Shown here one piece after another: positions 6,090 through 30,722 of a DNA stretch of 64,000 nucleotides. The number at the start of each line of letters is the position of its first letter. Within the stretch, counting starts at the first letter, position 1. Source of the stretch: Cupriavidus pauculus (lineage in GTDB: Bacteria > Pseudomonadota > Gammaproteobacteria > Burkholderiales > Burkholderiaceae); the NCBI RefSeq assembly GCF_003854935.1, contig NZ_CP033970.1:992001-1056000 (forward strand). Direction: 5' to 3'. The notes beneath the pieces are model-generated. The model saw nothing but the letters and a program-made list of their open reading frames with translations. It was not told the DNA's origin and did not search any database. Both the position numbers and the translations under genes were made by a program.

Positions 6090-6125
6090 CGCGCCGGTCG
6101 TTTTCGCGGATTTAAAGAGATTGCT

Positions 6126-6428: not shown

Positions 6429-6429
6429 C

Positions 6430-6756: not shown

Positions 6757-7151
6757 TGCGGGCCGACTCCGACGCTGCCATCGCCCCGACCACCCCGACC
6801 ACCCCGAACACCCCGGATGCGGCCGATGGCGCGTCACCGGCGCCGACGCGCATGGTCGCCATCACGTTCGTGACCAACCAGGGCAAGACCGTGAACGCGC
6901 CCGAGAACAGCAACCTGCTGCGCGTGTCGCTGCGCGAGCAGGGCGGCATTCCGTTCAAGTGTGGCGGCGGCATCTGCGGCACGTGCAAGTGCCGGATCGA
7001 GCAGGGGCTGGAACATACGGACGCGGTCAAGCCCAAGGAGCGCAAGCACCTGACCGACGACGACCTGCGCGCCGGCTATCGCATGGCATGCCAGACCTTC
7101 GTCAAGGGGGATGTGGCGGTGTCCTGGGAACCCCGCACCGGGCCCCGCTAG
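6753..7151 (+). CDS. 2Fe-2S ferredoxin (second copy), with N-terminal extension
   Basis: A 132-residue protein. Residues 1-33 are a Pro/Thr/Ala-rich leader (TTPTTPNTPDAADG), then a ferredoxin domain with Cys70-x4-Cys75-x2-Cys78 (KCGGGICGTC) and Cys113 (MACQT). The start overlaps the upstream stop, so either of two adjacent ATG codons (6753, 6756) may be used. An internal ATG at 6852 would give a plain ferredoxin without the leader. It ends the rightward operon, 13 bp from the end of the convergent IclR gene. It is probably an electron carrier for the oxidative step of the cluster. Confidence 0.85.
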   Translation: MMRADSDAAIAPTTPTTPNTPDAADGASPAPTRMVAITFVTNQGKTVNAPENSNLLRVSLREQGGIPFKCGGGICGTCKCRIEQGLEHTDAVKPKERKHLTDDDLRAGYRMACQTFVKGDVAVSWEPRTGPR

Positions 7152-14026: not shown

Positions 14027-14236
14027 CAGGTTACAGGGGAGTGACGGGAAATCGAGGGCCCGCAGCGTAACAGGCGCCGCGCCGATCCCGCAACCGGAAA
14101 CGCGCGGCAAGTTGATCGGGAACCTGCGGCCCGTCTTGGGACTCGACAGGGCTGGTGCCTATGATGAAGGCACGCACCGCCGCGGCACCCGCGCTGCATC
14201 GCCGCATCTCCCCACGCCAGACCCCAGGAGGCCCGC

Positions 14237-14482: not shown

Positions 14483-16159
14483 TCAGTCGAACTGGTACGA
14501 CCAGAGCAGGTTGATGCGCGGCGAGCGGTGGCTGGCGTTGGTCGGCCTGTCGCCCACGGGCTGGGCCACCGACACGTCCATCGTGTAGTAGCGCCGGTCC
14601 GAGAAGCGCAGGCCGATGGCCAGCGACTGCAGCGTCCGGTGCGACAGCGACACGCTGTTCGAGTACACGCGCGCCATGTCCGCCACCAGGAACGGCTGCA
14701 GCGTCTTCAGGTACGTGAAATCCACCGTGAACAGCCGGTTCAGCTCGGCCGATGCGCCCCAGCCCTTGTCGCCCGCCACCTCGCCGGCCGGGTAGCCCAG
14801 CCCGAAGAACCGGCCGCCAACGCTGATCTGCTCGCTCGACGCCAGCCGGTTGGCGCTGTACTGGCCCGCCGCAGACAGCGCCATGCCAAAGCCGAACGGC
14901 AGGTCGCTGGCCTGCGACAGCAGCAGCCGCGTGCGGAAGAAGCTCAGGTCGTTGAGGTTGTTCTGCCGGCTCGCGCCCAGTCCGTCGATGCCCTTGTAGA
15001 AGCCCAGCGTGGCATTGCGCGTCACGCCCGTGCCGCGCTGCAGGTACGCCACCTCGGCCGTCGCCACGCGCACGCTGGTGGCCAGTTCCACCTGCCGGCC
15101 GGCGCCGGGCTGCACGGCCTGCGTGTAGCGCTCGAACTGGTTGTTGGCGTAGAAGCCGCCGGTCAGCGTCAGCGCGTGACGGTTGTTCAGGATCACCGGA
15201 TAGCTCAGCGTGCCGCCCAGCCGCTTGGAATCGTTGACGTAGCGCGACTCGAACCCGATCGGCGCCAGCGCGTTGTTCTCGGGCACGCCGCGGTAGTGCG
15301 ACGCCGTGAGCCGGGCCAGCATCCCCTCGGTGCCCAGCGGCTGCGCGTAGGTGGCCGAGTAGTACTCCTCGTTGTCGCGGCCCTTTGGGAACAGCGTCGA
15401 GAACGACAGCTGCTCGCCCAGCGGCGTCAGGCTGTTGGTGGTGGCCGTGGCGATGGCCCGCACGCCCGGCGACATCCATTCCACGCCGGTGCCGAACGTG
15501 AACGGCTTGCGCTTGACCTCCAGCACCATGTCGCACGCGCCGTCGGTGGTGGTCGGCGGCTGCACGGTGGCGTTGACCTGCATGCCGGGCTGCTGGGCCA
15601 GCACGTTCACGTAGTGCTCGAAGCTTTCCTGCCGCAGCGGGCGGTCCTTCTTCAACTGCTCGGCGATCTTGCGCAGCCGCCCCTCGGCCGGGCCGGGCTT
15701 GCCCTTGACCGTGATGTTGGCCACGTAGCCCTCCACCACGGTGATCAGCACGTTGCCGTTCTCGAACGCCTGCGCCGGCACGAACGCGAACGACAGCGGG
15801 TAGCCCGCGTCCTTGTACATCTGCGTGACGGATTCCGCGGCCTGCAGCAGCTCGGCCACCGTGATCTCGCGGTTGGCCAGCGGGGTGAACTTTGCCGCGA
15901 TCTGGTCGAACGGCAGCGTCTTGGCGCCTTCGATCTGGAAATGCCGCGGTGTCAGCCGCGACGCCAGCAGGTTCTGCAGCGCCGAATCGGGTCGCTCCAC
16001 CTGCACGGTCACGTTGCTCTGGGCGGGTTTGCTGGGTGCGATGCTGGGCAGCGTCTGCGTGGGATCGCCCTGCACCGGGCCGCGCTCCGCATGGGACAGC
16101 CCGCTATGGAAGAGGCCGACGCCGACCAGCAGCGCGGCAACGCTCTCGCGTGTACGCAT
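14483..16159 (-). CDS. TpsB/FhaC-like outer-membrane transporter
   Basis: 558 residues. A signal peptide ends near SHA (residue 24). A ShlB-type POTRA_2 domain follows (about 70-145: RHFQIEGAKTLPFDQIAAKF, AAESVTQMYKDAGYPLSFAF, ITVVEGYVANITVKG), then a second POTRA and a beta-barrel ending in WSYQFD with the C-terminal aromatic residue. Such proteins secrete a partner in two-partner secretion. The L6 loop motif reads FGLGYPAGEVAGDKG, where the family normally has Arg (FGRGY or VRGY); this is Leu here. It lies 135 bp downstream of the lipoprotein gene 16295-17707 on the same strand. No classical haemagglutinin-type TpsA gene is nearby. Confidence 0.88.
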   Translation of the reverse strand: MRTRESVAALLVGVGLFHSGLSHAERGPVQGDPTQTLPSIAPSKPAQSNVTVQVERPDSALQNLLASRLTPRHFQIEGAKTLPFDQIAAKFTPLANREITVAELLQAAESVTQMYKDAGYPLSFAFVPAQAFENGNVLITVVEGYVANITVKGKPGPAEGRLRKIAEQLKKDRPLRQESFEHYVNVLAQQPGMQVNATVQPPTTTDGACDMVLEVKRKPFTFGTGVEWMSPGVRAIATATTNSLTPLGEQLSFSTLFPKGRDNEEYYSATYAQPLGTEGMLARLTASHYRGVPENNALAPIGFESRYVNDSKRLGGTLSYPVILNNRHALTLTGGFYANNQFERYTQAVQPGAGRQVELATSVRVATAEVAYLQRGTGVTRNATLGFYKGIDGLGASRQNNLNDLSFFRTRLLLSQASDLPFGFGMALSAAGQYSANRLASSEQISVGGRFFGLGYPAGEVAGDKGWGASAELNRLFTVDFTYLKTLQPFLVADMARVYSNSVSLSHRTLQSLAIGLRFSDRRYYTMDVSVAQPVGDRPTNASHRSPRINLLWSYQFD

Positions 16160-16294: not shown

Positions 16295-17707
16295 CTATCG
16301 CTTGCCGCCGAGCGCGCCGGTCAGGCCGCCGACGAGTCCGCCCACCAGCCCCGTGACCGGGGCCAGCGGGCTGGCGGGCTTGGTGCCGCCCGTCGTCGGC
16401 GTGGTGCTGCCGCTGGTGGCCGGGGCGTTGCCGCCGGTCAGGCCGGCCACCAGCCCGGTGACCGGTGCGAGCGGGCTGGCGGTGCTGCCGCCCGCGCCGC
16501 CCGTGGCCCCCGACAGCGCACCGGTGGCGCCGTTGGCGATGCCGCTGACCAGGCCGGTCACCGGCGCCAGCGGGCTTGCCGTGCTGCCGCCCGTGGCGCT
16601 GGTCAGGCCGCTGGTGACCGTGTTGACCAGGCCCGTGACCGGGGCGAGCGGGCTGGCCGCGCCGCCAGTGGCACTGGTCAGGCCGCCGGTCAGTCCGGCC
16701 ACGAGGCCGGTCACCGGCGCCAGCGGGCTGCCGGTGCTGCCCGCCGGGCCATTCACGACGCCGCCCACGGCGGCCACCGTGTTGCCGGTGCCCGTGACGA
16801 TGCCGCCCACGCCGGAGACCACCGGCGTGTTGGTGCTGGTCAGTTGCGAGCCGGCCGTCGCCAGCGCGCCGCCCACGGTGGCAAGCAGGTTGTTGACCGG
16901 CTGGCCCAGGCCCGTGGCCGCGCCCAGCGATTGCGTGCTGCTGGTCAGCGTCGACGTCAGCGGCACGATGGCCTTGCTGACGCTCGACGTGAGCTGTTCG
17001 ACCGGGCCCGTCGAGAGCGCGGTGCCCAGTTGCCCGCCAAGGTTGTTCACCGCGCCGCCCACCTGCGAGACCACGCCGCCCAGCGGCGTCGTGACCGCGC
17101 CCAGCGGCGCCAGCGGGCCGCTGCCCAGGCCAGTGACCGCGCTGCCGGCGCTGGTCACCGCGTTGCCAAGCTGGCTGACCACGCCGCCCGTGCTGGCCAC
17201 CGTGGTGCCCACCGGGTTCGTGGCATTGGGCATGCTGCCCAGGCCGGATTGCACGCCGGTGCCCAGCGCGCCCACCGCGCCGCCGATCGACGTCACCACG
17301 CCGGCCAGCCCGTCCTTGGTCTGCACGGAGACGACCGGCACGTTGGCGTCCTTGATGGCCTCGCCCACGCCGGTGACGGTATCGGCCACGCCGCCGATAA
17401 TGCCGCCCGCGTTGTTGACGATGGCGCCGGTTGGCGTCAGCGCGGGCGTGGTGCCGCCGTTGTTGCCGTCGTTCGGGTTGCCGCCGTTGGGCTGCCCGCC
17501 GTTGGGCTGGCCGCCGTTGCTGGCGGTGTCGGTGCCGCCGCCCGTGGTGGCGGTGCTGTTCGACCCGCCGGCGCCGCTGCTCCCACCCGCGCCGCTGGTG
17601 CCCATCGACGTCGAACCGCTGCCGCTGGCGCAGCCGCCCAGTGCCAGCAGGGACCCCAGCAATGCCGTGACGAAGCATTGCTTCGCCGAAAGTTGTGCCT
17701 TGCGCAT
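16295..17707 (-). CDS. Large low-complexity lipoprotein with SPLAPVTGL repeats (first paralogue)
   Basis: 470 residues. The lipoprotein signal has Cys26 (LLALGGC). A Gly/Ser/Asn/Pro-rich linker (about 30-85) is followed by a long region of Gly/Thr/Val-rich heptad-like units (TPTGAIVNNAGGIIGGVADT, GGVVSQLGNAVTSAGSAV) and then five copies of SPLAPVTGL spaced by 15-30 residues. Automatic annotation tends to call such proteins collagen-like, but there is no Gly-X-Y periodicity. ATG at 17707 is chosen because AGGA precedes it by 8 nt. It is probably cotranscribed with the TpsB-like gene downstream and is divergent from a paralogue at 18334. It is likely surface- or periplasm-anchored; its role is unknown. 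Confidence 0.82.
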   Translation of the reverse strand: MRKAQLSAKQCFVTALLGSLLALGGCASGSGSTSMGTSGAGGSSGAGGSNSTATTGGGTDTASNGGQPNGGQPNGGNPNDGNNGGTTPALTPTGAIVNNAGGIIGGVADTVTGVGEAIKDANVPVVSVQTKDGLAGVVTSIGGAVGALGTGVQSGLGSMPNATNPVGTTVASTGGVVSQLGNAVTSAGSAVTGLGSGPLAPLGAVTTPLGGVVSQVGGAVNNLGGQLGTALSTGPVEQLTSSVSKAIVPLTSTLTSSTQSLGAATGLGQPVNNLLATVGGALATAGSQLTSTNTPVVSGVGGIVTGTGNTVAAVGGVVNGPAGSTGSPLAPVTGLVAGLTGGLTSATGGAASPLAPVTGLVNTVTSGLTSATGGSTASPLAPVTGLVSGIANGATGALSGATGGAGGSTASPLAPVTGLVAGLTGGNAPATSGSTTPTTGGTKPASPLAPVTGLVGGLVGGLTGALGGKR

Positions 17708-17958
17708 GACCATTTCCTTTTTCAGATTTTCCCGACCAGGTTCACGGACACGCTGTGGATCGTCTCTGTTGCGATGCCTGTGGCGTGCCGCGTCTGCCAT
17801 GGCTTGCGCAAGCGGTGTGCCAGTGGGTGGGCCACGTCGGCGGCGGACCCCGCGCAAGCAGGGGATGCCGCGCGCAAACGCGCGTGCCGCAAGGGTTTGC
17901 GGCCGATCGGTCAAACGCGCGCATGAAGCGGCCGGGCGCGGCGGGCCGCGTGTTTCGC

Positions 17959-17975
17959 GTTACGTGTTACGTAAC
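17959..17975. promoter_or_regulatory. Palindromic operator candidate A
   Basis: GTTACGT-GTT-ACGTAAC is a perfect 7-bp inverted repeat with a 3-bp spacer. The same arms recur 109 bp away at 18068-18084. It lies about 250 bp upstream of the leftward lipoprotein start. Confidence 0.6.
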
Positions 17976-18067
17976 GCACGGTGACGCGGAGGGAACGGCG
18001 CGGGGTGCGATGCCGCGCGCGTGGACGGGGCGGCCGGTGTCCGGTGTAACGGCCGGCGCGGGAACAC

Positions 18068-18084
18068 GTTACGTAGCACGTAAC
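18068..18084. promoter_or_regulatory. Palindromic operator candidate B
   Basis: GTTACGT-AGC-ACGTAAC has arms identical to copy A with a different 3-bp spacer, centred 109 bp from it (about 10 helical turns). It lies 250 bp upstream of the rightward lipoprotein start. A dimeric repressor or activator bridging both sites is plausible. Confidence 0.6.
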
Positions 18085-18333
18085 ACCGTGCGGCCATCGC
18101 GCCAACGCTTGCGGCCGGGGCCCGCCGCGTGCCCGAAAGCCTTGCCCGGCAACGGTCTCCGGCCGGGGCACAGGCACGCGGCGCGCCTGTATCGAACACG
18201 CGATTGAGCCTGGCATACCGCTTGCGCTTCCGGTCCGCAGCCACGACGCATCACCCAGCCGCCGAACGGGTCGCGGCGATATGCGCGGGAAGACAGCGGG
18301 CCACGCCCAGCACATCGAAAAGGAGATCAGGAC

Positions 18334-19500
18334 ATGCAAGCAACCAAGCCGACGCGCCCCTTGAACATGATGGCCATCGCCTGCGCGGCGATGGTGGCCC
18401 TGCTGGCCGGCTGCGCCTCGGGCGGGTCCAGTGGCGGCAGCCCCAGCCCCGCCACGCCGGGCACCCCGACCAATCCCGGCACCGACAACCCGCAGCCCAC
18501 CGCGGCAACCACGCCCACGGGCAAGGTGGTGGAAGGCGCGGGCAACACCGTGGTGGCCACCGGCAACGCGGTGAGCCAGATCGGCCAGCAGATCAAGGAC
18601 ACGAACCTGCCGCTGGTGCCGACCAATGCGAAGAACGCCACCGGCGACGTGGTGATCGAGGCGGGCCAGACCGTGGCCACGCTAGGCACCGGCGTGCGCG
18701 ACGGCCTGGGCCAGATCGGCGCGGTGGACAACCCCGTGGGCGTGACCGTGGCCAACACCGGCAACGTCGTCACGCAGGCGGGCGCCACGGTGGTCAGCGC
18801 GGGCGATCTCGTCAAGGCCGTCGGCACGGACCAGCTCTCGCCGCTGTCGGCCGTGACCAATCCTGCCGGCGGACTCGTGCAGACCGTGGGACAGGGCGTG
18901 ATGACGTTGGGCGGCAAGCTGGGCGAGACGCTGTCCACGGGGCCCGTGGCGCAGCTCACCGGCAGCACCAGCAAGGTCATCGTGCCACTGACCACTCAGC
19001 TCACCAACGCCACGCAGACCGTGGGCGGCGCCACGGGGCTCGGCGTGCCCGTCGACAACCTGCTGACCAAGCTCGGCAATACCGTCGCCACGGCGGGCAG
19101 CATGATCGCCAACACCAACACGCCGATCGTCTCGCCGCTGGGCGGCGTGGTGAACCAGACCGGCCAGACCGTTGCGGTGGCCGGCGTGCTGCTGAACCAC
19201 AACGGCGCCACGGGCGGCAATCCGCTCGGTGGACTGCTCAACAACCTGCCGCTGGGCGGCACGGGCGGCAGCACCGGCGGCAGCAGTCCGCTGGCACCGG
19301 TCACCGGCCTGCTGGGATCGGTGGGTGGCGCGGCGGGCGGCAGCACCGGCGGCAGCAATCCGCTGGCGCCGGTCACGGGCCTGCTGACCACGGTCACAAG
19401 CGGCCTGACCGGTGCCACGAGCGGCGCCGCATCGGGCGGGACCACCGCCAGTCCGCTTGCCCCCGTCACTGGCCTGCTGGGCGGGCTGACGCGCCACTGA
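18334..19500 (+). CDS. Large low-complexity lipoprotein with SPLAPVTGL repeats (second paralogue)
   Basis: 388 residues, paralogous to the protein at 16295-17707. Lipobox LLAGC (Cys27), a Pro/Thr-rich linker, then the same chain of segments: PTGKVVEGAGNTVVATGNAV, QIKDTNLPLVPTNAKN (first paralogue EAIKDANVPVVSVQTKD), VGVTVANTGNVVTQ and ALSTGP/TLSTGPVAQLTGS. The C-terminus has three units, SPLAPVTGL, NPLAPVTGL and SPLAPVTGL. A good AGGAGATCAGGAC precedes ATG 18334. It is shorter than its partner mainly through fewer C-terminal repeats. Divergent transcription over shared palindromes suggests joint control. Function unknown. Confidence 0.82.
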   Translation: MQATKPTRPLNMMAIACAAMVALLAGCASGGSSGGSPSPATPGTPTNPGTDNPQPTAATTPTGKVVEGAGNTVVATGNAVSQIGQQIKDTNLPLVPTNAKNATGDVVIEAGQTVATLGTGVRDGLGQIGAVDNPVGVTVANTGNVVTQAGATVVSAGDLVKAVGTDQLSPLSAVTNPAGGLVQTVGQGVMTLGGKLGETLSTGPVAQLTGSTSKVIVPLTTQLTNATQTVGGATGLGVPVDNLLTKLGNTVATAGSMIANTNTPIVSPLGGVVNQTGQTVAVAGVLLNHNGATGGNPLGGLLNNLPLGGTGGSTGGSSPLAPVTGLLGSVGGAAGGSTGGSNPLAPVTGLLTTVTSGLTGATSGAASGGTTASPLAPVTGLLGGLTRH

Positions 19501-19747: not shown

Positions 19748-19939
19748 TAAGCTGAAACAGCCATAGCTCGAACGGGGGGTATGGTTGAGACATGCGTTGT
19801 CTTATAAATGTTTGCACCAGCGGTTTCACACATAAAAAACGCCACGCGGGGCTTGCGCCCGGCACAGATGGCAGAGGAACAGGGGTCAGGTCGTACCGCT
19901 GGATATCCGTGCAGGGTAGACACTTTCGGGAGTGAGATC

Positions 19940-20119
19940 ATGCAAAAGAAACTGGCGCGCCATGGCAAGACCCAACGGGGAGCCACTGCCATCGAATATG
20001 GCCTGATCGTGGGCCTCATCTCCATCGCCATCGCAGCCGGAGTCGGCTTGATGGGCACCAACCTCGGCGCCGGGTTCAATACCCTGGCCGGCCGCATCGC
20101 GGGCTGGTTCGCCCCCTGA
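19940..20119 (+). CDS. flp: Flp/Fap type IVb pilin
   Basis: A 59-residue prepilin. A basic leader (MQKKLARHGKTQRG) is cut by prepilin peptidase after Gly14, giving a mature protein beginning ATAIEYGLI. Glu5 and Tyr6 of the mature chain are the Flp signature, and the hydrophobic helix GLIVGLISIAIAAGVGL is intact. Flp pilins polymerise into adhesive Tad fibres. ATG at 19940 is fixed by the leader and a GGGAGTGAG site. The gene heads the Tad locus and is separated from the rest by a UUCG hairpin, which would allow pilin excess over machinery. Confidence 0.95.
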   Translation: MQKKLARHGKTQRGATAIEYGLIVGLISIAIAAGVGLMGTNLGAGFNTLAGRIAGWFAP

Positions 20120-20446: not shown

Positions 20447-20908
20447 ATGGCTTTACGGGGGAACGCGAACCAGCGGCGCGCGCGTGGCGTGGCCGCGGTG
20501 GAGTTTGCGCTGGTGTTTCCGCTGCTGTTGGCAGTGGTGCTGGGCATCGTCTACTACGGCGTGGTGCTGGCACTGCAGCAGGTACTGACGCTCGCCGCCC
20601 AGGAGGGTGCGCGGGCTGCCTTGCGTTATCCGCTCGCCGTCAACGGCGGCACGCTGGCCGATACGCTCGACCTGCGCGTGAGCGCCGCCAACCTGGCCGC
20701 GCGCAACACGCTGCCGGAGGCCATTGCCGCACAGATCGGTGACGGCGCCGTGGCCCAGCCCGTGGCCTGTACCGCCCCGGCCGGCACGCAATGCGTGCAG
20801 GTCACGCTGAACCTTCCCACCCGCGCGCTCCTGCCGGTCATCCCGCTGGTCCCCGTGCCCGGCACGCTGACCGGCGCCGCCGTCGTGCAGCTTTCTCCCG
20901 ATCTCTGA
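20447..20908 (+). CDS. tadE: TadE-like pseudopilin
   Basis: 153 residues. The basic N-terminus (NQRRARG) is followed by VAAVEFALVFPLLLAVVLGI, the TadE signature with the Glu5 pilin-like helix, then LQQVLTLAAQEGARAALRYP and a periplasmic domain with two cysteines (VACTAPAGTQC) that probably form a disulfide. TadE-like minor pilins are processed by prepilin peptidase and are needed for Flp fibre assembly. The stop lies 6 bp before the cpaB start, so these genes are cotranscribed. Confidence 0.88.
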   Translation: MALRGNANQRRARGVAAVEFALVFPLLLAVVLGIVYYGVVLALQQVLTLAAQEGARAALRYPLAVNGGTLADTLDLRVSAANLAARNTLPEAIAAQIGDGAVAQPVACTAPAGTQCVQVTLNLPTRALLPVIPLVPVPGTLTGAAVVQLSPDL

Positions 20909-20914
20909 GGCCAC

Positions 20915-21871
20915 ATGAGCAGCAAACAGATAAGGATCCTTGCCATCGTGCTGCTGGTACTGGCCGCGCTGCTGGCGGTCATGGCGTGGCAGGTGGCGCG
21001 CACGCAGTCGGTCGCCATTCCGCATGCCAAGGCCAGGCCGGCCCACGCCGTGGTGGTCACCACGCGCGCCGTGGAAGCGGGCAAGCCGCTGACGGCTGAT
21101 GCGCTGGCGGTCATGGAGCTGCCGATCGACCCGGCCGGCGCCTACCAGGACGCCGCGCGCGTGGTGGGGCAGGTGCCGGTGGTCAACCTGGGCGCCAACG
21201 TGCCCGTGCTCGAAGGCCAGTTGCTGTCCGGGCTGGCACGGCAGATTCCCGATGGCGAACGCGCGCTGGCCGTGGCCGTGGACGAGGTGATCGGCGTGGG
21301 CCACCAGGTGCAGCCCGGCGATTTCGTCGACGTGTTCGTGACGCTGCGCCGCGACAGCCAGGAGATTGGCGAAAGCCAGAGCCGCCTGCTGCTGTCTCAC
21401 CTGCGCGTGCTGGCCTACGGCAGCGGCAGCGTCAGCGATACCCGCAAGGTGCAGGCCGAGCAGATGATGGCGCGCCGCGAGGGCGCCAAGACGGCGGTGT
21501 TGTCGGTGCCGGTGGACCAGGTGGGCAAGCTGGCGATGGCGCAGCAGGCCGGCCGGCTGGTGCTGGCGCTGCGCAACCCGGCCGATCCGTCGATGCCCAG
21601 CGACGGCATGTATGCCGAACCGCCGGCCGTGCTGCCGGCGCGCGCCGGCGTGCCGGCCGAGGCCCAGCGGTCGCCGGTGGACCGCGCCGCCGCCGGCATC
21701 AGCCTGGTCGGACTAGCCGGCCCGAATGCCGCGCCGACCCCGCGCACCACGGCGCAGCCGCCCCGCCCGCTGCCGGCACCGGTGCCGGCGGCCCCGGCCA
21801 CGCGGCGCGAGCCCCAGGACAACCCCGTCGGCGTGGAAGTGATCCGCGCCGGCAAGCGAGCGATCGAATAA
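20915..21871 (+). CDS. cpaB: Flp pilus assembly protein CpaB/RcpC
   Basis: 318 residues. An N-terminal anchor (IRILAIVLLVLAALLAVMAW) precedes the SAF domain (VVVTTRAVEAGKPLTADALAV, VVGQVPVVNLGANVPVLEGQL) and the RcpC region (GDFVDVFVTLRRD, QEIGESQSRLLLSHLRVLAYG). The C-terminus is Pro-rich (QPPRPLPAPVPAAPA). CpaB is a periplasmic component that helps assemble or gate the Tad secretin. It is 6 bp after tadE and 13 bp before cpaC, within one operon. Confidence 0.93.
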   Translation: MSSKQIRILAIVLLVLAALLAVMAWQVARTQSVAIPHAKARPAHAVVVTTRAVEAGKPLTADALAVMELPIDPAGAYQDAARVVGQVPVVNLGANVPVLEGQLLSGLARQIPDGERALAVAVDEVIGVGHQVQPGDFVDVFVTLRRDSQEIGESQSRLLLSHLRVLAYGSGSVSDTRKVQAEQMMARREGAKTAVLSVPVDQVGKLAMAQQAGRLVLALRNPADPSMPSDGMYAEPPAVLPARAGVPAEAQRSPVDRAAAGISLVGLAGPNAAPTPRTTAQPPRPLPAPVPAAPATRREPQDNPVGVEVIRAGKRAIE

Positions 21872-21884
21872 CGGACAACAGGGC

Positions 21885-23291
21885 ATGCCCAAACCCATGA
21901 CAGCCCGAGGCAATACCGGCCGGATCGGCCGGCGCGTGGTCACCATCGCCCTGCTGGCGATGACGTCGATACCGATGACGGCGCCCCACCCGGTGGCGGC
22001 CCAGGAGAACACGGCGGCGGTCCCGTCGCCAGGCGCCGCGCGCACGTTGCGCCTGATGGCCGGCGCGCAACAGGAGATCCGCCCCGGCCAGCCGCTGGAG
22101 CGCGTGGCCGTGGGCAACCCGGCCGTGGCCGATGCGCTGCTGCTCAAGGCGCGCAGCGGCCCGCCGACCGTGCTGGTGGTGGCCAGGAAGCCCGGCGTGA
22201 CCGACGTGATGCTTTGGACCCGCAACGCGGCGCCGGTCACGTACACGGTGCAGGTGGATGCCGTGTCGCCCGATGCCGGCGGCGCCAGCGTGGACCTGTC
22301 GGCGGTGGGCGCCGCCATTCGTGGCGAATCGCCCGACGCTGCGGCCGCCGCCCGCACGCAGCAGGCCGCGCGCGCCGCGGTGGCCGGGCCGGACGGCAAG
22401 GGCGGCGTGGTGGTCGACCGCTCCGTGGTGCCGGTATCGAACACGGTGCAGGTGGACGTGAAGGTCGTGGAGATCAGCAAGACCATCCTGAAGGAGGTGG
22501 GCTTCAACTTCATCAAGAGCAGCGGCGGCTTCACGTTCGGCCAGTTCAGCCCCACGTCGCTGACCAAGACCACGATCGGCCCGCAGCCCAGCTTCGAGGG
22601 CACGTTGCCGATCGGCAGCGCGTTCAACCTGGTGGCCGCGTGGGCCAAGGAGGGCATCTTCGCCAACCTGAGCCTGCTGGAGGCCAACGGGCTGGTGCGC
22701 GTGCTGGCGGAGCCGAGCCTGGTGGCGCTGTCCGGCCAGAGCGCGAGCTTTCTGGCGGGCGGCGAGATCCCGATCCCGGTGCCGCAGGCGCTGGGCACGA
22801 CGACCATCCAGTTCAAGCCGTTCGGCATCGGGCTGACGGTGTCGCCCACGGTGGTGTCGAAAGAGCGCATCGCGCTGAAGGTGGCCCCCGAGGCCAGCGA
22901 CCTCGACCCGTCGCGCGGCATCAGCATCAACGGCGCGTCGGTGCCCGCCATCGTCACGCGGCGCGCGGACACCACGGTGGAGCTGGGCGACGGCGAGAGC
23001 TTCGTGATCGGCGGGCTGGTCAGCCGCAACACGGTCAGCAACGTGAGCAAGGTGCCGTTCCTGGGCGATTTGCCGATCCTGGGCAGCTTCTTCAAGAACC
23101 TCAATTTCCACCAGGAGGACCGCGAGCTGATGATCGTGGTCACGCCACACCTGGTCAAGCCGCTGGCCCGCGATTCGCAGGTGGCGGCGAACGTGGCCAA
23201 GGACGGCCGCACGACCGCCAGCCCCAACGTCTGGGGCCGCTTCGTGCTGGGCGAATACGCAGACCCGACGCTGCCCGGCTTTTCGCGGTAG
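21885..23291 (+). CDS. cpaC: Tad outer-membrane secretin CpaC/RcpA
   Basis: 468 residues. A signal peptide (VVTIALLAMTSIPMTAPHPV) is followed by an N-terminal pilus-assembly domain (RPGQPLERVAVGNPAVADALLL, PTVLVVARKPGVTDVMLW) and the type II/III secretin domain (LVRVLAEPSLVALSGQSASF, GGEIPIPVPQ, TPHLVKPL). The secretin forms the outer-membrane pore through which the Flp fibre leaves. Length is in the family range. It lies downstream of cpaB and just upstream of cpaE. Confidence 0.94.
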   Translation: MPKPMTARGNTGRIGRRVVTIALLAMTSIPMTAPHPVAAQENTAAVPSPGAARTLRLMAGAQQEIRPGQPLERVAVGNPAVADALLLKARSGPPTVLVVARKPGVTDVMLWTRNAAPVTYTVQVDAVSPDAGGASVDLSAVGAAIRGESPDAAAAARTQQAARAAVAGPDGKGGVVVDRSVVPVSNTVQVDVKVVEISKTILKEVGFNFIKSSGGFTFGQFSPTSLTKTTIGPQPSFEGTLPIGSAFNLVAAWAKEGIFANLSLLEANGLVRVLAEPSLVALSGQSASFLAGGEIPIPVPQALGTTTIQFKPFGIGLTVSPTVVSKERIALKVAPEASDLDPSRGISINGASVPAIVTRRADTTVELGDGESFVIGGLVSRNTVSNVSKVPFLGDLPILGSFFKNLNFHQEDRELMIVVTPHLVKPLARDSQVAANVAKDGRTTASPNVWGRFVLGEYADPTLPGFSR

Positions 23292-23296
23292 CGCAG

Positions 23297-24535
23297 ATGG
23301 AGCGAATCACACCGATGGATGCCTTCCTGCTGAATACCCCGCGAGAAGACGTGCGGCTCTGGCTGGAGCAGGCGCTCGACGGCGCCGGCACGCTGGTGAC
23401 CGAGGAAGGCGCGCAGGAAGCCTTTGTCGAGCAGATCTCGGAGCTGCGTCCGGGACTGGTCTTTCTCGACTTCTCGGCGTCGCAGGCGCAGGCGTCGGCC
23501 CGGCTGGCCGAGCAGGTGGCGCGGCTGTTCCCGCAGTTGCCGCTGGTGGCCGTGGGCCACGCGGGAGATTCCGACGCGATGCTGGCCGCGCTGCGCGCCG
23601 GCGTGCGCGATTTCATCGACCTGCGCGGCGCGCCGTCGCAGGCCACCCATGCCGTGCGCCGCCTGATGGTGCCGCGTGCGCAGGTGCGCGCCGTGACGCC
23701 CGCGCACCGGCATGGCCGCATCGTCGCGCTGCTCGGCGCGCGCGCCGGCGTGGGCGTGACCAGCGTGGCGGTCAACCTGGCCGCGGCGGTGCGCCAGCGC
23801 GCCAGCGCCGAGGTACTGCTGCTGGACCTGGGCCTGCCCGCGCGCGACGGCGCGCTGCACATGAACATCGCGCCCGAATTCCACTTTGTCGAGGCCGTGC
23901 GCAACCTGCGCCGCTTCGACCAGGTGTTCGTCGATACCGCGCTGGCGCGCCATGCCAACGGCGTGTCGGTGCTGCCGCTGCCGGCCACGCTGTCCGAACT
24001 GCGCGACGTGTCGTTCTCCGAGGCGCTGGCGCTGCTGGACCGCCTGCGCGCGTTCTTCGACCTCCAGGTGATCGACCTGGGCGGCTTCTCGAACGCCGAG
24101 TTCATGTCGCAGATCGTCAAGGCCGCCGACGCCGTGGTGATGGTGGCCGAGCAGAGCGTGGGCGCCATCGTCTCGGCCGCCGAGCTGCTGCACGAGCTGA
24201 AGAAACGCGAGATCGAGCGGCCAGACCTGCACCTGCTGGTGTCGCGCTTCGACGACGCGCTGGGCGTGGACGCCGCGCAGATGGCCGAGCGCATCGGCGT
24301 GGCGTCGGTCGATACGCTGCCGGAGCGGCGCGCGGCGCTGGTGCAGGCGGCCAACCGTGGCGTGGTGCTGGCCGACGACGCGCCGGCGGACCCGTACGTG
24401 CGCGCGCTGGGCGCGCTGATGGACCGGCTGGGCTACCGCGCGGGCCAGGCGCCCGAGCGCGGCATCCTGGCCCGGATCAAGCAAAAGCTGCCCGAGACGC
24501 TGCGTGTCGCGCGCACCGCGCGGGCGGGGAACTGA
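23297..24535 (+). CDS. cpaE: CpaE/TadZ-like localisation protein
   Basis: 412 residues from ATG 23297 (or 406 from ATG 23315). An N-terminal receiver-like domain (MDAFLLNTPREDVRLWLEQAL, LVFLDFSASQ, GVRDFIDLRGAPSQ) precedes a MinD/ParA-type ATPase domain. The Walker A region reads LLGARAGVGVTSVAVNLA: the signature lysines of the deviant P-loop (KGGxGKT) are replaced, so ATP hydrolysis is doubtful, as in other TadZ proteins. CpaE/TadZ places the Tad machine at the pole. The start overlaps no other gene; the stop is 1 bp before the cpaF start. Confidence 0.88.
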   Translation: MERITPMDAFLLNTPREDVRLWLEQALDGAGTLVTEEGAQEAFVEQISELRPGLVFLDFSASQAQASARLAEQVARLFPQLPLVAVGHAGDSDAMLAALRAGVRDFIDLRGAPSQATHAVRRLMVPRAQVRAVTPAHRHGRIVALLGARAGVGVTSVAVNLAAAVRQRASAEVLLLDLGLPARDGALHMNIAPEFHFVEAVRNLRRFDQVFVDTALARHANGVSVLPLPATLSELRDVSFSEALALLDRLRAFFDLQVIDLGGFSNAEFMSQIVKAADAVVMVAEQSVGAIVSAAELLHELKKREIERPDLHLLVSRFDDALGVDAAQMAERIGVASVDTLPERRAALVQAANRGVVLADDAPADPYVRALGALMDRLGYRAGQAPERGILARIKQKLPETLRVARTARAGN

Positions 24536-24536
24536 C

Positions 24537-25853
24537 ATGACCGAAGCGATCGAATTCTCGGACAACACCGCCGCGCCGTTTCCTGTGTCGCAGGAATTCC
24601 ACAAGATCAAGGAAGCGGCGCACGAGCACCTGCTCACGCGCATCGAGGAGCTGGGCGCCGAGTTCGGCCGCTGGTCGCGCTCCGCCATCCAGCGCTTTGT
24701 CGACCTGGAGCTCGAAAGCTTCACGCGGCTGCGCCGCATCCCGATCAACGAGGCCGAGCTGCACCAGATCTCCGAGGCGCTGACCAAGGAGCTGGCCGGC
24801 TTTGGCCCGATCGAGGACCTGCTGCACGACGTGGCCGTGGAGGACATCCTGGTGAACGGACACATGGACGTCTACGTGTCGCGCCACGGCGTGCTGGAGC
24901 GGATTCCGGTGCGGTTTGCCGACAACGGCCACCTGCTGCGCATCGTGCGGCGCATCCTGGCGCCCATCGGCCGCCGGCTCGACGAATCGAACCCGATGGT
25001 GGACGCGCGGCTGCCCGACGGCGGCCGCATCAACGTGATCATCCCGCCGCTGGCGCTGGCCGGCCCCGTGGTGTCGATCCGCAAATTCCGCAAGGACCCG
25101 CTGACGCCGGCCGACCTGCAGGCGCTGGGCACCATGAGCCCCGAGATCACCGAGCTGCTGGAGGCGGCGGTGCGGGCGCGCTGCAACATCCTGGTCAGCG
25201 GCGGCACCAGTTCGGGCAAGACGTCGCTGCTCAACGCGCTGGCCACGTTCATCCCGCCCACCGAGCGCGTGATCACCATCGAGGACACGGCCGAGCTGGC
25301 GCTGAACCACCCGCACGTGGTGCGGCTGGAAAGCCGGCCCGGCGGGTTCGAGGGCACCGGCACGGTCACCATCCGCGACCTGCTGCGCAACAGCCTGCGG
25401 ATGCGGCCGGACCGCATCATCGTGGGCGAGGTGCGCGGCGGCGAGGTGCTGGAGATGCTGCAGGCCATGAGCACCGGCCATGACGGCTCGATGGGCACGA
25501 TCCACGCCAGCAGCCCGCGCGAATGCCTGTACCGGCTGGAGATGCTGGCCGGCTTTGCCGGCTTCCAGGGCAGCGAGGTGAGCCTGCGCCGGCAGATTGC
25601 CAACGCGGTGGACTTCATCGTGCAGATCGGGCGGCTGTCGAACGGCCGGCGGCGCATCCTGTCGATCACCGAGGTCACCGGGCTGGGCGACAACATCATC
25701 GCCACGCAGGAGCTGTATCGCCACGAGCCGGTGCCCAACCCCGACGGCACCGAAGGCGACCGCTGGCAGGCGCTGGGCATCCTGCCCCATTCGCCCAAGC
25801 TCGCGCGCATGCGCCCGGCCAACTTCGGACTGGACGATCGCTTTGATCTCTAG
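24537..25853 (+). CDS. cpaF: Tad secretion ATPase CpaF/TadA
   Basis: 438 residues, a hexameric ATPase of the secretion superfamily. Domain order: N-terminal helical region, N-domain with LTKELAGFGPIEDLLHDVAV, Walker A at GGTSSGKTSLL, the Asp box ITIEDTAELAL, Walker B around RPDRIIVGEVRGGE and the His box GHDGSMGTIHASSPRE. It powers pilin assembly, and possibly retraction, at the inner membrane. ATG at 24537 (MTEAIEFSD) directly follows the cpaE stop. The 3' end overlaps the probable TTG start of tadB. Confidence 0.95.
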   Translation: MTEAIEFSDNTAAPFPVSQEFHKIKEAAHEHLLTRIEELGAEFGRWSRSAIQRFVDLELESFTRLRRIPINEAELHQISEALTKELAGFGPIEDLLHDVAVEDILVNGHMDVYVSRHGVLERIPVRFADNGHLLRIVRRILAPIGRRLDESNPMVDARLPDGGRINVIIPPLALAGPVVSIRKFRKDPLTPADLQALGTMSPEITELLEAAVRARCNILVSGGTSSGKTSLLNALATFIPPTERVITIEDTAELALNHPHVVRLESRPGGFEGTGTVTIRDLLRNSLRMRPDRIIVGEVRGGEVLEMLQAMSTGHDGSMGTIHASSPRECLYRLEMLAGFAGFQGSEVSLRRQIANAVDFIVQIGRLSNGRRRILSITEVTGLGDNIIATQELYRHEPVPNPDGTEGDRWQALGILPHSPKLARMRPANFGLDDRFDL

Positions 25854-26772
25854 CGCCAGCCTTCTCGTCGCCGCGATGGCCCTGGTGCTGCTGGGCCTGG
25901 GTCTGCTGCTGCTGGCCACGGCCCGGGGGCGCGCCCAGGCCGAGCTGTCGCGCGCGCACCTGGCCGCGCAGACCGAGCAGGTGCGCGCCCGCTACGCCAC
26001 GGCGGCCGAGCCCGGCCCGCAGGGCAACGTGCGCGACCTGCGCCGCCGCTGGGCGGACCTGATGCGGCGCGCGGACATCGCGCCCACGCGCGGCACGTGG
26101 CTGCGCTGGGGCATGCCGCTGCTGTGCCTGGTGCTGGCGGGCGCGGCAGCCGGCGGCGCGCTCGGGGCGGTGGCGATGCTTGCGGTGGGCGTGGCGCTGG
26201 CCGCGTTCCTGCTGTGGCTGCGTATCGGCCGCGTACGCGACAGGATGCTGCGGCAGCTGCCCGGCTTTCTCGATGGCGTGGTGCGGCTGATGACCATCGG
26301 CAGCAGCGTGCCGGCCGCGTTCCAGAATTCGGTGGCCAACACCGAGCCGCCGCTGCGCCAGTGCCTGGTGCAGGCCATCCACCTGCAACGGGCCGGCAAG
26401 GAACTCGACCAGGCCGTGCTGCAGATGGGCCGCGCGTACCGGCTGGACGAGCTGGTCATCGTGTCGTCGGTGCTGCGGCTGTCGCAGCGCTACGGCGGCC
26501 GCGCCGACGTGGTGATGGAGCGCACCGCCACCTTCATGCGCGACCGCGAGGAAGCCCAGCGCGAGCTGCTGGCGCTGTCCGCCGAGACGCGGCTGTCGGC
26601 CTGGGTGCTGGGCCTGCTGCCGCTGGTGGTGGCGGGCGGGCTGTTCGTGCTGAACGCCGGCTACGTGATGCTGATGTGGAAGGACCCCACGGGCCGCAAC
26701 CTGCTGCTGGGCGCGGCCGTGCTGGAAGTGGTGGGCGTGCTGATGCTGTACCGGCTGGCCAAGTCGATCTAG
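25843..26772 (+). CDS. tadB: Tad inner-membrane protein TadB
   Basis: About 309 residues. Membrane helices are predicted near the N-terminus (SASLLVAAMALVLLGLGLLL), at about 85-125, and two at the C-terminus. The type II secretion F domain is in the middle (LPGFLDGVVRLMTIGSSVPA, KELDQAVLQMGRAYRLDEL, RTATFMRDREEAQRELLALSA). It forms the inner-membrane platform with TadC. The start is uncertain: TTG at 25843 overlaps cpaF by 11 bp and keeps the first membrane helix whole; ATG at 25876 would cut into it. I prefer the TTG. Confidence 0.88.
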   Translation: MISSASLLVAAMALVLLGLGLLLLATARGRAQAELSRAHLAAQTEQVRARYATAAEPGPQGNVRDLRRRWADLMRRADIAPTRGTWLRWGMPLLCLVLAGAAAGGALGAVAMLAVGVALAAFLLWLRIGRVRDRMLRQLPGFLDGVVRLMTIGSSVPAAFQNSVANTEPPLRQCLVQAIHLQRAGKELDQAVLQMGRAYRLDELVIVSSVLRLSQRYGGRADVVMERTATFMRDREEAQRELLALSAETRLSAWVLGLLPLVVAGGLFVLNAGYVMLMWKDPTGRNLLLGAAVLEVVGVLMLYRLAKSI

Positions 26773-26781
26773 GGGCGCGCC

Positions 26782-27867
26782 ATGCAGATGCCAGCCACCA
26801 CCCTGATCTCCGCCAGCCTGATGGCCGCGGCCGTGGCGCTGCTGATGCTGGCGTGGCCGCTGCTGCGGCAGTGGCGCCAGCGGCGCGTGGCCGCGCGGAC
26901 GATCGACGCCGCGCTGGAACGGCAGGCCGCCGCGCAGCCGCATCCCGCCGGCCAGCCCCCGGGCCAGCCGGCGGCGCCGGCCACGCCGCAGATGTCGGCA
27001 CGTGCCGCCGCGGCCGCCGCCGCGCTGGCGCAGGCCGCGCCCCAGCCCGCCGAGGACGCCGCGCGCAAGCCGGCCGCCACGGGGCTGGGCGCGCGGCTGG
27101 GCGATGCTTTTGGCGAGCGCTTCAACCAGCGCTGGCTCGCATCGCGGCTCGGGCGCGCCGTGGTGACGGCCGAGGAACAGCGGCTGCTGGAGCAGTGCGG
27201 CTACTACGGCGTGCAGCCGCGCGCGGTCTTTGGCGGCGTGCGGCTGGTGGTGCCGGCGGTGCTGGCGGCTGGCGTGCTGCTGTGGCGCATCGACGGGCCG
27301 ATGGCGGCCACGTTTGCGTGGACCTTCGCCACGTTCGCGCTGGCCTTCCTGCTGGCCAAGCTGATCCTGCGCCGGTGGGCCGGCAGCCGGCAGCGCCAGG
27401 TGGCCGAGGAATTGCCGGTGCTGATCGACATGCTGCGGCTGCTGCAGGGCGTGGGCCTGTCGATGGACCAGAGCCTGCAGGTCATCGTCACCGAATTCGG
27501 CACGATGCTGCGCGTGCTGGGGCCCGAGCTGCAGCGCGCGAACCAGCAGTTCGCGTCCGGCCGCTCGCGCGAGCAGACGCTGCAGCGCATCGGCAAGCTG
27601 TTCGACGACGAGGACCTGAAGAGCCTGATCACGCTGCTGACGCAGGTGGACAAGCACGGCGGCGCCGTGCAGGAGCCGCTGCGCCAGTTTGGCGAGCGGC
27701 TGCAGGTGGCGCGCAAGGCGCGCATGAAGGACAAGATCGGCCGGCTGACGGTCAAGATGACCGGCGTGATGGTGGTGAGCCTGCTGCCGGTGCTGCTGAT
27801 CCTGACGGCCGGGCCCGGCTTTCTGGGCGTGATCCGGATGCTGGCCCGCATGAACGGAGGAACCTAG
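26782..27867 (+). CDS. tadC: Tad inner-membrane protein TadC
   Basis: 361 residues. One N-terminal helix, then an Ala/Pro-rich linker (about 50-100, AAAQPHPAGQPPGQPAAPA), two central helices (VVPAVLAAGVLLW and AWTFATFALAFLLAK), the F domain (AEELPVLIDMLRLLQGVGLS, SREQTLQRIGKLFDDEDL) and a C-terminal helix (MVVSLLPVLLILTAGPGF). It is the paralogous partner of TadB in the platform. The start is 9 bp after tadB; the stop abuts the next start codon. Confidence 0.9.
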   Translation: MQMPATTLISASLMAAAVALLMLAWPLLRQWRQRRVAARTIDAALERQAAAQPHPAGQPPGQPAAPATPQMSARAAAAAAALAQAAPQPAEDAARKPAATGLGARLGDAFGERFNQRWLASRLGRAVVTAEEQRLLEQCGYYGVQPRAVFGGVRLVVPAVLAAGVLLWRIDGPMAATFAWTFATFALAFLLAKLILRRWAGSRQRQVAEELPVLIDMLRLLQGVGLSMDQSLQVIVTEFGTMLRVLGPELQRANQQFASGRSREQTLQRIGKLFDDEDLKSLITLLTQVDKHGGAVQEPLRQFGERLQVARKARMKDKIGRLTVKMTGVMVVSLLPVLLILTAGPGFLGVIRMLARMNGGT

Positions 27868-28686
27868 ATGACGATGACATCGCGTGGCCTGTGGGCCGGC
27901 GCGCTGGTGGCGGCCGGCGCGCTGCTGGGCGGCTGCGCCAGCGTGCCCGGCAGCGCCGAGGCCATGGCGCGGCAGGCCGACGCCCAGATCGAGCTGGCGA
28001 AGCTGCAGGAAAAGACCGCGCGCGCCGAATATAACGACCAGAACGTCTACCTGGGCCTGATCGGCAAGATGCAGCAGGAAGGCATGTACTACGCGTCGCT
28101 GGCCCATATCGACGCCTTCCAGCAGCGCTTTGGCGCCACGCCCGCGCTGCAGGTGCTGCGCGCCGACGCGCTGCGCGAGACCGGCCAGGACGACGCGGCG
28201 CTGCAGGCGTACCGCGATCTGCTGAACACCGACCGCGCGGCCCGCGCGCAGCATGGCATCGGCCTGGTGCTGGGCCGGCAGGGCGATTTCATCCGCGCCG
28301 CCGTGGCGCTGCGCCAGGCGGCCACGCTGGACCCGGTCAACCCGCAGATCGCCAACGACCTGGGCTACGCGCTGATGCGCGGCGGCGCGCTGCAGGACGC
28401 GCGCGTGCCGGTGATGCAGGCGCTGGAGCTGGACGCCAACAACCCGCGCGCGATCAGCAACGCGGTGGTGTGGATGCTCGCCACCGGCAAGCGCACCGAA
28501 GCCACCGCGATGATGCAGCGCGCCGCCATGCCCGAGCCCACGCGCGCGGCCATCCGCAAGGAAGCGGACCGCGTGGCCCGCGCGGCCCAGTTGCGCGACA
28601 AGGCCGCGCCGCGCGGCAATCCGCAGACCACGATCCACCCGGCGTCCACGCAAGCCGTGGCGCTCAACGCAGGAGCCCGGCCATGA
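27868..28686 (+). CDS. tadD: TadD-like TPR lipoprotein
   Basis: 272 residues. The lipobox is LLGGC (Cys23). Several TPR units follow (PALQVLRADALRETGQDDAALQ, AQHGIGLVLGRQGDFIRAAV, QIANDLGYALMRGGALQDAR), giving a helical scaffold in the periplasm. TadD acts like a pilotin, stabilising the secretin. The C-terminal 35 residues are unstructured. ATG at 27868 directly follows the tadC stop (TAGATG), so translational coupling is likely. Confidence 0.9.
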   Translation: MTMTSRGLWAGALVAAGALLGGCASVPGSAEAMARQADAQIELAKLQEKTARAEYNDQNVYLGLIGKMQQEGMYYASLAHIDAFQQRFGATPALQVLRADALRETGQDDAALQAYRDLLNTDRAARAQHGIGLVLGRQGDFIRAAVALRQAATLDPVNPQIANDLGYALMRGGALQDARVPVMQALELDANNPRAISNAVVWMLATGKRTEATAMMQRAAMPEPTRAAIRKEADRVARAAQLRDKAAPRGNPQTTIHPASTQAVALNAGARP

Positions 28687-29012: not shown

Positions 29013-30722
29013 ATGCGCGCGCGAGCCGGCCCTTCGCGTCAACGCGGCGCCATCAGCGTGATGGTCGCCGTGCTGATCGCCACCGTCGCCATCGGCGCGC
29101 TGGTGTCGATCGACGTCGGCTTCGTGTTCTATACGCAGCGGCAATTGCAGAAATCGGTGGACCTGGCCGCGCTGTCGGGCGCCCAGCAACTGAAGCGGGC
29201 CGACGATCTGCCCACGACCACGGCCAATGTGCTGGCGTCGGTCACGGCGGCGGCCAGCCAGAACGGCTACGGTCAGCCCGTGGCGGCCAACTGCGCGGAC
29301 ATGGCGCCAGGCGGCGCCGACGGCATGCGTGCCTGCCTGGGCCTGTGGGACCCGGCCGATCCCGGCAATGGCGACGCGGTGCGGCACTTCAGCGCCGGCT
29401 ACAACAGCGCGGTGGTCTCGCCCAACGCGGTGCGCGTGCAGGCCACGCGCACGGTGCCGCTGCTGTTCGTGCTGCCGGGCGGGCAGTCGCGGCAACTGCG
29501 CGCCGAGGCCATCGCGGCCGGCAGCCCACCCGTGGCGGCGTTCGCGGTCGGCAGCGGGCTGCTGGACCTCGACCGCGCCAGCGGTGTGCTCGGGCTGCTG
29601 CTGGGCAACATCGTGAGTCTTTCAGTGGCCGACTGGACCGGGCTGGCCAGTACCACGGTGACGCTGGACAAGCTCAAGCTCCAGCTCGGTGCCGGCACGG
29701 TCCAGCAACTGCTCGACACGCAACTGTCGATCCAGGATTTCTACGCGCTGGTGCTCAACGCGGCCGGTCGGCAGGCGCTGCTGGGCGCCGCGCTGGGCAG
29801 CCCCACCACGCAGCTCGGGCTCAACGGTATCGGCACGCGCTTCACGCTGGGCCAGATGCTGGACCTGGGCGTGCTGACGCCGGCTGCGTCGTCGGCGGCC
29901 GAGGTGGGGCTCAACGTGGCGTCGCTGCTGACCACGGCCGCCTATGTGGCGCGCGGCACCGATGCCGTGGCGCTGAACGTGCCGAACCTGAACCTCAACA
30001 CGGGGCTGGTCAACGTCTCGGCGGTGGCGGCGCTGACCGTCATCGAACCGCCGCAGGTGGCCGTGGGCCCGGCGCGCCAGTTGGCGGACGGCCGCTGGCG
30101 CACCACGGCCAGCACCGCGCAACTGGGCGTGCGGGTGGCCGCGCAGGCGTCGGTCAACCTGGGGCTGGCATCGGCCCAGGTAGACCTGCCGGTGCTGCTG
30201 CGCGCCGCCACGGCCCGCGCGGACCTGACCGGCGTGCAATGCGCGGCCGCGCGGGCGCAGCGCCGGGCCACGCTCAATGTTTCGTCCGAACTGGTCAACG
30301 CCTGCCTGTCGACCGATGGACGCACCTGCCGCGGCAGCGGCGCGCCGCCGTTCCAGATCGCGCGGGTGAGCGGGCTGGGCCTGGGGCTGGCCAGCATCAC
30401 CGCGCAGCCGGTGACGCCCGCGCGGCAGCGGCAGTCGGGCACCGACGTCGTACTGGCGCCCGAAGGGCACGCGCGCCTGTCGTTCACGTCCACGGCCGTC
30501 GACCAGGCGATCAGCGGGCTGCTCAACAACCTCAATCCGAGCCTCAACGTGCTGGGCGGCGATGCCAAGGTCGACGAACTGCTGAACCTGCTGGCCCCGC
30601 CGCTGAGCAGCCTGGTCGGCACGCTGGCCGGCTGGCTGCTGACCACGCTGGGCATCAACATCGCCAATGCCGATGTCTGGCTCAACGGCATCGACTGCAA
30701 CAACGCAGAACTTGTGTATTGA
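29013..30722 (+). CDS. TadG-like pilus locus protein
   Basis: 569 residues. A basic leader (RQRGAIS) is followed by one hydrophobic helix VMVAVLIATVAIGALVSIDV and the TadG/TadE-like continuation YTQRQLQKSVDLAALSGAQQ. A long periplasmic region follows with many Leu/Ala/Thr-rich segments (LGVLTPAASSAAEVGLNVAS). It has a few cysteines (VQCAAARA, CLSTDGRTC, IDCNN). TadG proteins are membrane-anchored and may link the fibre to the wall. No von Willebrand domain is apparent, unlike in some TadG proteins. It is 6 bp upstream of the sigma-54 activator gene. Confidence 0.83.
   Translation: MRARAGPSRQRGAISVMVAVLIATVAIGALVSIDVGFVFYTQRQLQKSVDLAALSGAQQLKRADDLPTTTANVLASVTAAASQNGYGQPVAANCADMAPGGADGMRACLGLWDPADPGNGDAVRHFSAGYNSAVVSPNAVRVQATRTVPLLFVLPGGQSRQLRAEAIAAGSPPVAAFAVGSGLLDLDRASGVLGLLLGNIVSLSVADWTGLASTTVTLDKLKLQLGAGTVQQLLDTQLSIQDFYALVLNAAGRQALLGAALGSPTTQLGLNGIGTRFTLGQMLDLGVLTPAASSAAEVGLNVASLLTTAAYVARGTDAVALNVPNLNLNTGLVNVSAVAALTVIEPPQVAVGPARQLADGRWRTTASTAQLGVRVAAQASVNLGLASAQVDLPVLLRAATARADLTGVQCAAARAQRRATLNVSSELVNACLSTDGRTCRGSGAPPFQIARVSGLGLGLASITAQPVTPARQRQSGTDVVLAPEGHARLSFTSTAVDQAISGLLNNLNPSLNVLGGDAKVDELLNLLAPPLSSLVGTLAGWLLTTLGINIANADVWLNGIDCNNAELVY

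Follow-up and report, generated by a model that had tools for sequence, protein, structure and literature searches.

A 64,000-nucleotide stretch of the Cupriavidus pauculus genome (contig NZ_CP033970.1, positions 992,001 to 1,056,000; hereafter the window) carries divergent genes for two lipoproteins of 470 and 388 residues, here called lipoproteins A and B, and beside them the gene for a TpsB-like outer-membrane protein, a relative of the transporters of two-partner secretion (TPS). Across the Burkholderiaceae, TpsB orthologues of this type are near-obligate partners of lipoproteins of this family and the link between the two is strong. An earlier description made from the letters alone (the sequence-only reading) had seen two paralogous lipoproteins of common layout beside a TpsB-like protein, and this is confirmed throughout: both proteins have lipoboxes (LGGC-AS in A, LAGC-AS in B), Gly/Val/Thr-rich middles and C-terminal PLAPVTGL repeats, which had been counted correctly as three to five. 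The three genes are these:

16295..17707, minus strand: lipoprotein A, 470 residues, five exact PLAPVTGL copies (residues 328-454), PF15984 match at residues 123-320 (E 2.6e-69)
18334..19500, plus strand: lipoprotein B, 388 residues, three exact PLAPVTGL copies (residues 319-381), PF15984 match at residues 92-288 (E 6.3e-68), AlphaFold model
14483..16159, minus strand: TpsB-like protein, 558 residues, two predicted POTRA domains and a predicted 16-strand barrel, VRGY arginine replaced by Leu 454 (Pfam, PDB matches, AlphaFold)

By profile match we assign both lipoproteins to the named Pfam family Collagen_mid (PF15984, abbreviated CM in gene orders below), since they score 233 and 229 bits against a curated cut-off of 31.1 and cover model positions 1-198 and 1-197 of 198. 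The suspicion that repeat number varies is borne out between species: among 160 unique Collagen_mid frames, exact PLAPVTGL copies range from 0 to 6 per protein, with none in 79, and the looser string PLAPVTG occurs 1 to 6 times in eight loci of the Cupriavidus group. An AlphaFold model of lipoprotein B (mean predicted local distance difference test score, pLDDT, 65; predicted template modelling score 0.48) has a low-confidence repeat tail and seven long helices at residues 61-286, best defined at 61-200, with pLDDT means of 57-93 for blocks of 10 residues across 61-290. No solved fold could be assigned to this model, which predicts that the Collagen_mid middle domain is all-helical and not collagen.

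The TpsB-like protein matches POTRA_2 (E 7e-18) and ShlB (E 2e-13), which places it on the TpsB side of two-partner secretion, as the sequence-only reading had proposed. Its PDB relatives, by sequence and by fold, are FhaC and CdiB, both of which are the top structural matches of its AlphaFold model (mean pLDDT 81); the model, as we read it, has two POTRA domains and a barrel of sixteen strands, which is the layout of FhaC. The gene begins 135 bp downstream of that for lipoprotein A on the same strand, and a simple scan found no terminator on that strand between them, so that cotranscription of the two is plausible. The protein shares up to 93% identity with Cupriavidus records, and its orthologues form a distinct group: in 60 genomes of the genus they score at least 775 bits (one is split into matches of 822 and 339), and the next TpsB matches reach at most 110.

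One feature sets this group apart. The hallmark VRGY motif is reported to be essential in FhaC, where its arginine bridges to a barrel aspartate (PMC5422565). FhaC TVRGY aligns with rfalgY of the window protein. Across 109 unique frames of orthologues the arginine column never holds arginine: Leu stands there in 98, Gln in 7, Ala in 2, and Met and Ser in 1 each. Asp 494, aligned with the FhaC aspartate of that stretch, is kept in 108 of the 109, and a VRGY/F string is present at each of the other four POTRA_2 loci in the same genome.

Pairing of TpsB and Collagen_mid across genomes

Co-occurrence was tallied from per-genome rows in the 60 genomes of the genus, in 250 Burkholderiaceae genomes (at least 90% complete) and, at class level, in 370 genomes. 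Whether PLAPVTGL-family proteins occur with TpsB had been suggested as a check, and they do: in the family sample both partners are found in 143 genomes, neither in 104, and only three genomes are discordant (Fisher P 2e-67, a value that ignores phylogeny). In the genus sample the same 43 genomes have Collagen_mid and the TpsB orthologue, and the same 17 have neither. TpsB stands alone in a fragmented assembly, where it lies on a 4.9 kb contig (G260), and in a Pandoraea-type genome with no Collagen_mid match, where it is interrupted by a stop codon (G162); Collagen_mid stands alone in G214. RcpC, a component of the Tad pilus machinery, is present in all 146 genomes with either partner, and 42 further genomes have RcpC without the pair.

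Gene order was examined in 38 stretches from the sampled genomes and in 80 named loci. Among the 38, TpsB, Collagen_mid and Tad genes lie together in 28; one stretch (L089) has the pair but no Tad genes within its fetched 20 kb, one (L099) has a Collagen_mid gene 9 kb from a distant relative of TpsB, and eight, all from a single Pandoraea-type genus (g10) and including one 4.9 kb contig, have TpsB without Collagen_mid or Tad. At the named loci, Collagen_mid is directly upstream of TpsB in 62 of 80, the remainder comprising 15 Pandoraea loci, two contigs under 5 kb and one true exception. Tad genes are also seen in 59 of those 62, the other three being contigs of 8-10 kb.

The arrangement of the unit relative to the Tad genes varies by lineage. 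The pair is divergent from Tad in Cupriavidus, Ralstonia, Paraburkholderia and Caballeronia, and a collinear order CM-TpsB-flp-tad is found in Collimonas, Glaciimonas, Herbaspirillum, Herminiimonas and Oxalicibacterium. At L107 and L108 the order is Flp-CM-TpsB-TadE, inside the Tad operon; in these two genomes, of genus g9, the lipoprotein and TpsB genes between Flp and TadE are an additional copy of the pair. Six Pandoraea-type loci that were fetched have Collagen_mid divergent beside Tad and TpsB elsewhere, both being retained, and at the one unlinked TpsB locus that was scanned (L080) the gene lies among unrelated genes, with no TpsA among the eight proteins scanned.

Collagen_mid exceeds the cut-off in three of the 370 class-level genomes, namely the window's own and two outside the order; two others (G316 and G400) have weak matches below it. 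In both outgroup genomes the gene for a Collagen_mid protein with a lipobox is immediately followed, on the same strand, by that for a TpsB relative (E 3e-88 and 2e-84), and the window's Tad proteins have no match in the fetched 20 kb of these two loci (L237 and L238; the rest of those genomes was not searched). These outgroup pairs without nearby Tad genes are the strongest indication that the core unit consists of lipoprotein and TpsB, with Tad a later association.

Two observations concern the flanks of the pair. Downstream of TpsB, the window has a gene for a PLD-like protein (13421-14110, minus strand), of which a relative follows TpsB in many of the named Cupriavidus loci and in none from other genera, counting strong matches only. 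The outgroup pair at L237 is followed downstream by another frame rich in Gly, Val and Thr (326 codons; 5945-6922, minus strand), the beginning of which resembles a signal peptide.

Putative promoters, proposed activator and the Tad cluster

The lipoprotein genes had been described as lying back to back over shared palindromes. They are indeed divergent, with 626 bp between their starts, and the motifs between them exceed chance; what had gone unrecognised is that the palindromes appear to be two mirrored sigma54-type promoters and two palindromic candidate activator sites:

17808..17822, minus strand: sigma54-type promoter motif TGGCACACCGCTTGC of lipoprotein A, 115 bp upstream of the start
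18211..18225, plus strand: sigma54-type promoter motif TGGCATACCGCTTGC of lipoprotein B, 123 bp upstream of the start
17959..17975, no strand: candidate activator site GTTACGTGTTACGTAAC, perfect palindrome
18068..18084, no strand: candidate activator site GTTACGTAGCACGTAAC, perfect palindrome
30729..32093, plus strand: sigma54-dependent activator (Sigma54_activat, E 4.7e-63, and Fis-type helix-turn-helix), proposed regulator of the lipoprotein promoters

The sigma54 consensus consists of -24 GG and -12 GC elements at fixed spacing. The motif TGGCAYRN4TTGC occurs three times in the window, twice as a mirrored pair between the lipoprotein genes, against 0.18 expected; the two perfect GTTACGTNNYACGTAAC palindromes there give four strand-matches against 0.04 expected when up to two mismatches are allowed. 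They sit 137 and 127 bp behind their respective promoter motifs, and such a distance is the usual place for a sigma54 activator. The named loci contain 94 strict sigma54 motifs, of which 84 fall in the 250 bp ahead of a Collagen_mid start; of the 95 Collagen_mid genes whose start could be assigned (8 further frames, without one, were left out), 84 are preceded by such a motif at that distance, so that a -24/-12 element is conserved upstream of the family at the level of the motif. Regions upstream of Flp have no strict motif in any of 85 cases. An orthologue of the activator is found at the 3' end of the Tad cluster in all six stretches fetched to cover it.

The 6.18 Mb genome has four palindrome sites with at most one mismatch, two of them between the lipoprotein genes. 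Of the others, a one-mismatch copy (L232, about 3703-3717, minus, and 3875; C3:481374 in the genome) is about 160 bp from a strict sigma54-type motif, so that the same activator may have a further target at this place. The second, a perfect copy (L231, about 4002; C3:707501), is followed after about 35 bp by an open frame that, by eye, resembles a LuxR-type regulator in its C-terminal part; no match to the relaxed sigma54 pattern adjoins this copy. The window's third strict motif, TGGCATGGAGATTGC (42028-42042, minus strand), is away from the lipoprotein genes.

The Tad locus, which the sequence-only reading overlooked, begins 440 bp downstream of the lipoprotein B gene and ends in the activator gene. 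It brings together flp, rcpC, a secretin, tadZ, tadA, tadB/C and tadE:

19940..20119, plus strand: Flp pilin (Flp_Fap), first Tad gene, start chosen inside the frame 19808-20119
20447..20908, plus strand: TadE-like protein
20915..21871, plus strand: RcpC/CpaB
21885..23291, plus strand: secretin
23300..24535, plus strand: TadZ, start approximate
24504..25853, plus strand: TadA-type ATPase (T2SSE)
25597..26772, plus strand: TadB-like protein (T2SSF), an open frame with the gene start somewhere within
26782..27867, plus strand: TadC-like protein (T2SSF)
27868..28686, plus strand: TadD-like tetratricopeptide repeat (TPR) protein with lipobox
29013..30722, plus strand: Tad/TadG-like protein

The association is with one type of Tad locus. 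As controls, 20 Tad loci lying away from TpsB were chosen among the RcpC matches listed, so that the absence of TpsB from them is partly by choice, whereas the absence of Collagen_mid from their fetched stretches (8 from genomes with the pair, 12 from genomes without) is a result. Trees of TadA, secretin, RcpC and TadZ, built after length and identity filters from 65/20, 77/14, 89/17 and 80/19 linked/unlinked sequences, split the two kinds of locus cleanly, with support of 1.0, 1.0, 0.995 and 0.996 respectively. The window's own genome has two RcpC matches and so probably a second Tad locus. Five members of the genus without the pair fell in the 250-genome draw, four with one RcpC match and one with none.

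A possible route to the surface

The sequence-only reading knew of no described system to match this one, and that view must be given up: the family is named, and a like locus with a deletion phenotype is known from the Flp/Tad cluster of Burkholderia cenocepacia. Collagen_mid proteins of the B. cepacia complex have been treated as putative adhesins, and BCAL1523 and BCAL1524 are placed between the Flp pilus operon and the outer-membrane protein gene BCAL1522, printed as a heme-utilisation-related protein and 561 residues long by its printed coordinates (Estevens et al. 2023, PMC10224339). BCAL1524-1520 and BCAL1525-1537 are two putative operons of the Flp cluster (PMC2753556); contact with host-membrane vesicles induces BCAL1520, BCAL1523, BCAL1524 and Flp genes (PMC7970998). 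BCAL1524 has been found in outer-membrane vesicles, and its deletion reduces autoaggregation, which complementation restores (PMC10303873). The family, its Flp/Tad neighbourhood and one deletion phenotype were thus known already. To these our computations of family membership, co-occurrence, synteny, sigma54-type motifs and predicted folds add a near-obligate and unusual outer-membrane partner: we found no mention of a link between Collagen_mid and TpsB in the open-access literature, where two papers name PF15984, nor of BCAL1522 beyond PMC10224339.

Like BCAL1520-1537, the window unites two Collagen_mid lipoproteins, an outer-membrane protein gene and a Flp/Tad operon in one neighbourhood, but its lipoprotein genes diverge over paired sigma54-type promoter motifs whereas those of B. 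cenocepacia share a strand, and BCAL1522, printed as heme-utilisation-related and not as TpsB, is likened to the window TpsB by position and description, not by sequence. Two-partner secretion (type Vb, FhaC/FHA) offers the same predicted architecture of two POTRA domains and a 16-strand barrel, encoded beside a presumed partner; here, however, that partner is a lipoprotein, bearing a lipobox where a TpsA protein would have an unlipidated Sec signal and giving no match to the N-terminal TPS domain, and the VRGY arginine is absent. Slam is a TPR plus DUF560 barrel protein. Slam-dependent surface lipoproteins likewise have an outer-membrane protein encoded beside them that may bring them to the surface, but the window protein is an Omp85/TpsB-type barrel with POTRA domains, for which Pfam gives POTRA_2 and ShlB only. 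The Tad cluster directly downstream recalls Tad/Flp pilus loci, and differs from these at large in that the module is carried by one subtype.

So nearly constant a pore partner suggests that the pore puts the lipoproteins on the surface. We consider it an even chance that TpsB brings them to the cell surface, where they would act as aggregation factors beside the Tad pilus; that this is a surface system of some kind, as first proposed, is probable. The system would work like two-partner secretion with lipid-anchored passengers as the substrates of TpsB. The lipoproteins would cross the inner membrane via Sec, receive their acyl chains on the cysteine of the lipobox and travel to the outer membrane, through which the two-POTRA, 16-strand TpsB may then move them. 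On the cell surface the helical Collagen_mid domain and repeat tail would form a self-associating coat, which may cooperate with the neighbouring Tad pilus when cells attach to one another and to surfaces. Sigma54 may switch on the lipoprotein genes through the activator encoded at the end of the Tad cluster. We put forward more tentatively, as a possibility somewhat short of even, that this is a lipoprotein form of two-partner secretion, in which a VRGY-less TpsB subfamily serves specifically to carry acylated Collagen_mid lipoproteins through the outer membrane, is older than and separable from the Tad locus, and was later built into it in the Burkholderiales.

Several points weigh against export by TpsB. 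We infer it from genomes; partners that share a role could co-occur without one being the other's substrate, and the genomes counted are phylogenetically non-independent. The orthologues lack the arginine of a motif that is reportedly essential in FhaC (PMC5422565), and neither lipoprotein has a Pfam match to a TPS domain up to E 1 (the genome's other proteins were not searched for one). G214 has a shortened Collagen_mid frame (242 codons) and no TpsB; the exceptional named locus, L168 of Herbaspirillum autotrophicum, has TpsB beside Tad and no Collagen_mid match in the fetched 21.6 kb; and the unlinked TpsB genes of Pandoraea have a sigma54 motif at none of 23 loci. The presence of BCAL1524 in vesicles is, moreover, no proof of surface exposure.

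The main rival holds that TpsB and the lipoproteins serve the Tad machine as accessory parts, such as a complex for docking or retention at the outer membrane, with no export by TpsB. The constancy of RcpC in all 146 genomes with either partner speaks for it, as do the position of the pair beside or inside one Tad subtype (collinear in Collimonas and its relatives, between Flp and TadE at L107 and L108) and the 20 other-type loci without Collagen_mid, from which four Tad protein trees divide cleanly; yet pairs lacking Tad genes in the fetched 20 kb (L089, L237 and L238, the rest of the last two genomes being unsearched), the Pandoraea TpsB, unlinked from Tad where Collagen_mid stays linked, and a sigma54 motif that precedes Collagen_mid genes and not Flp make it rather unlikely. 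It is improbable that TpsB exports a conventional TpsA encoded elsewhere, the lipoproteins staying on the periplasmic side and paired with it through common regulation only. TpsB proteins normally have TPS-domain partners, and the lipoproteins have no such domain. TpsB nevertheless adjoins Collagen_mid in several gene arrangements and outside the order, no TpsA is among the eight proteins scanned at L080, and the relative BCAL1524 occurs in outer-membrane vesicles and influences the aggregation of cells with one another (PMC10303873). The family name, the many GXX tripeptides of B. cenocepacia relatives (PMC10224339) and one run of five successive GXX triplets in lipoprotein A's linker (residues 36-50) might suggest that the lipoproteins are genuine collagen-like adhesins with a triple helix, but this is very improbable given the all-helical middle domain predicted for a single chain, the absence of long Gly-X-Y tracts (that run is the longest in A, and the longest in B has three triplets) and the inability of Estevens et al. 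to place the relatives with known collagen-like proteins (PMC10224339).

Collagen_mid lipoproteins have been studied as Burkholderia adhesins and antigens, and their route to the surface is left unexplained in the parts of the papers considered here. Should export by TpsB prove true, it would constitute a TPS-type route for surface lipoproteins, new relative to those papers. A TpsB without VRGY is a natural case for asking what that motif does, and the sigma54 circuit, which is testable, would tie aggregation proteins to the Tad pilus locus.

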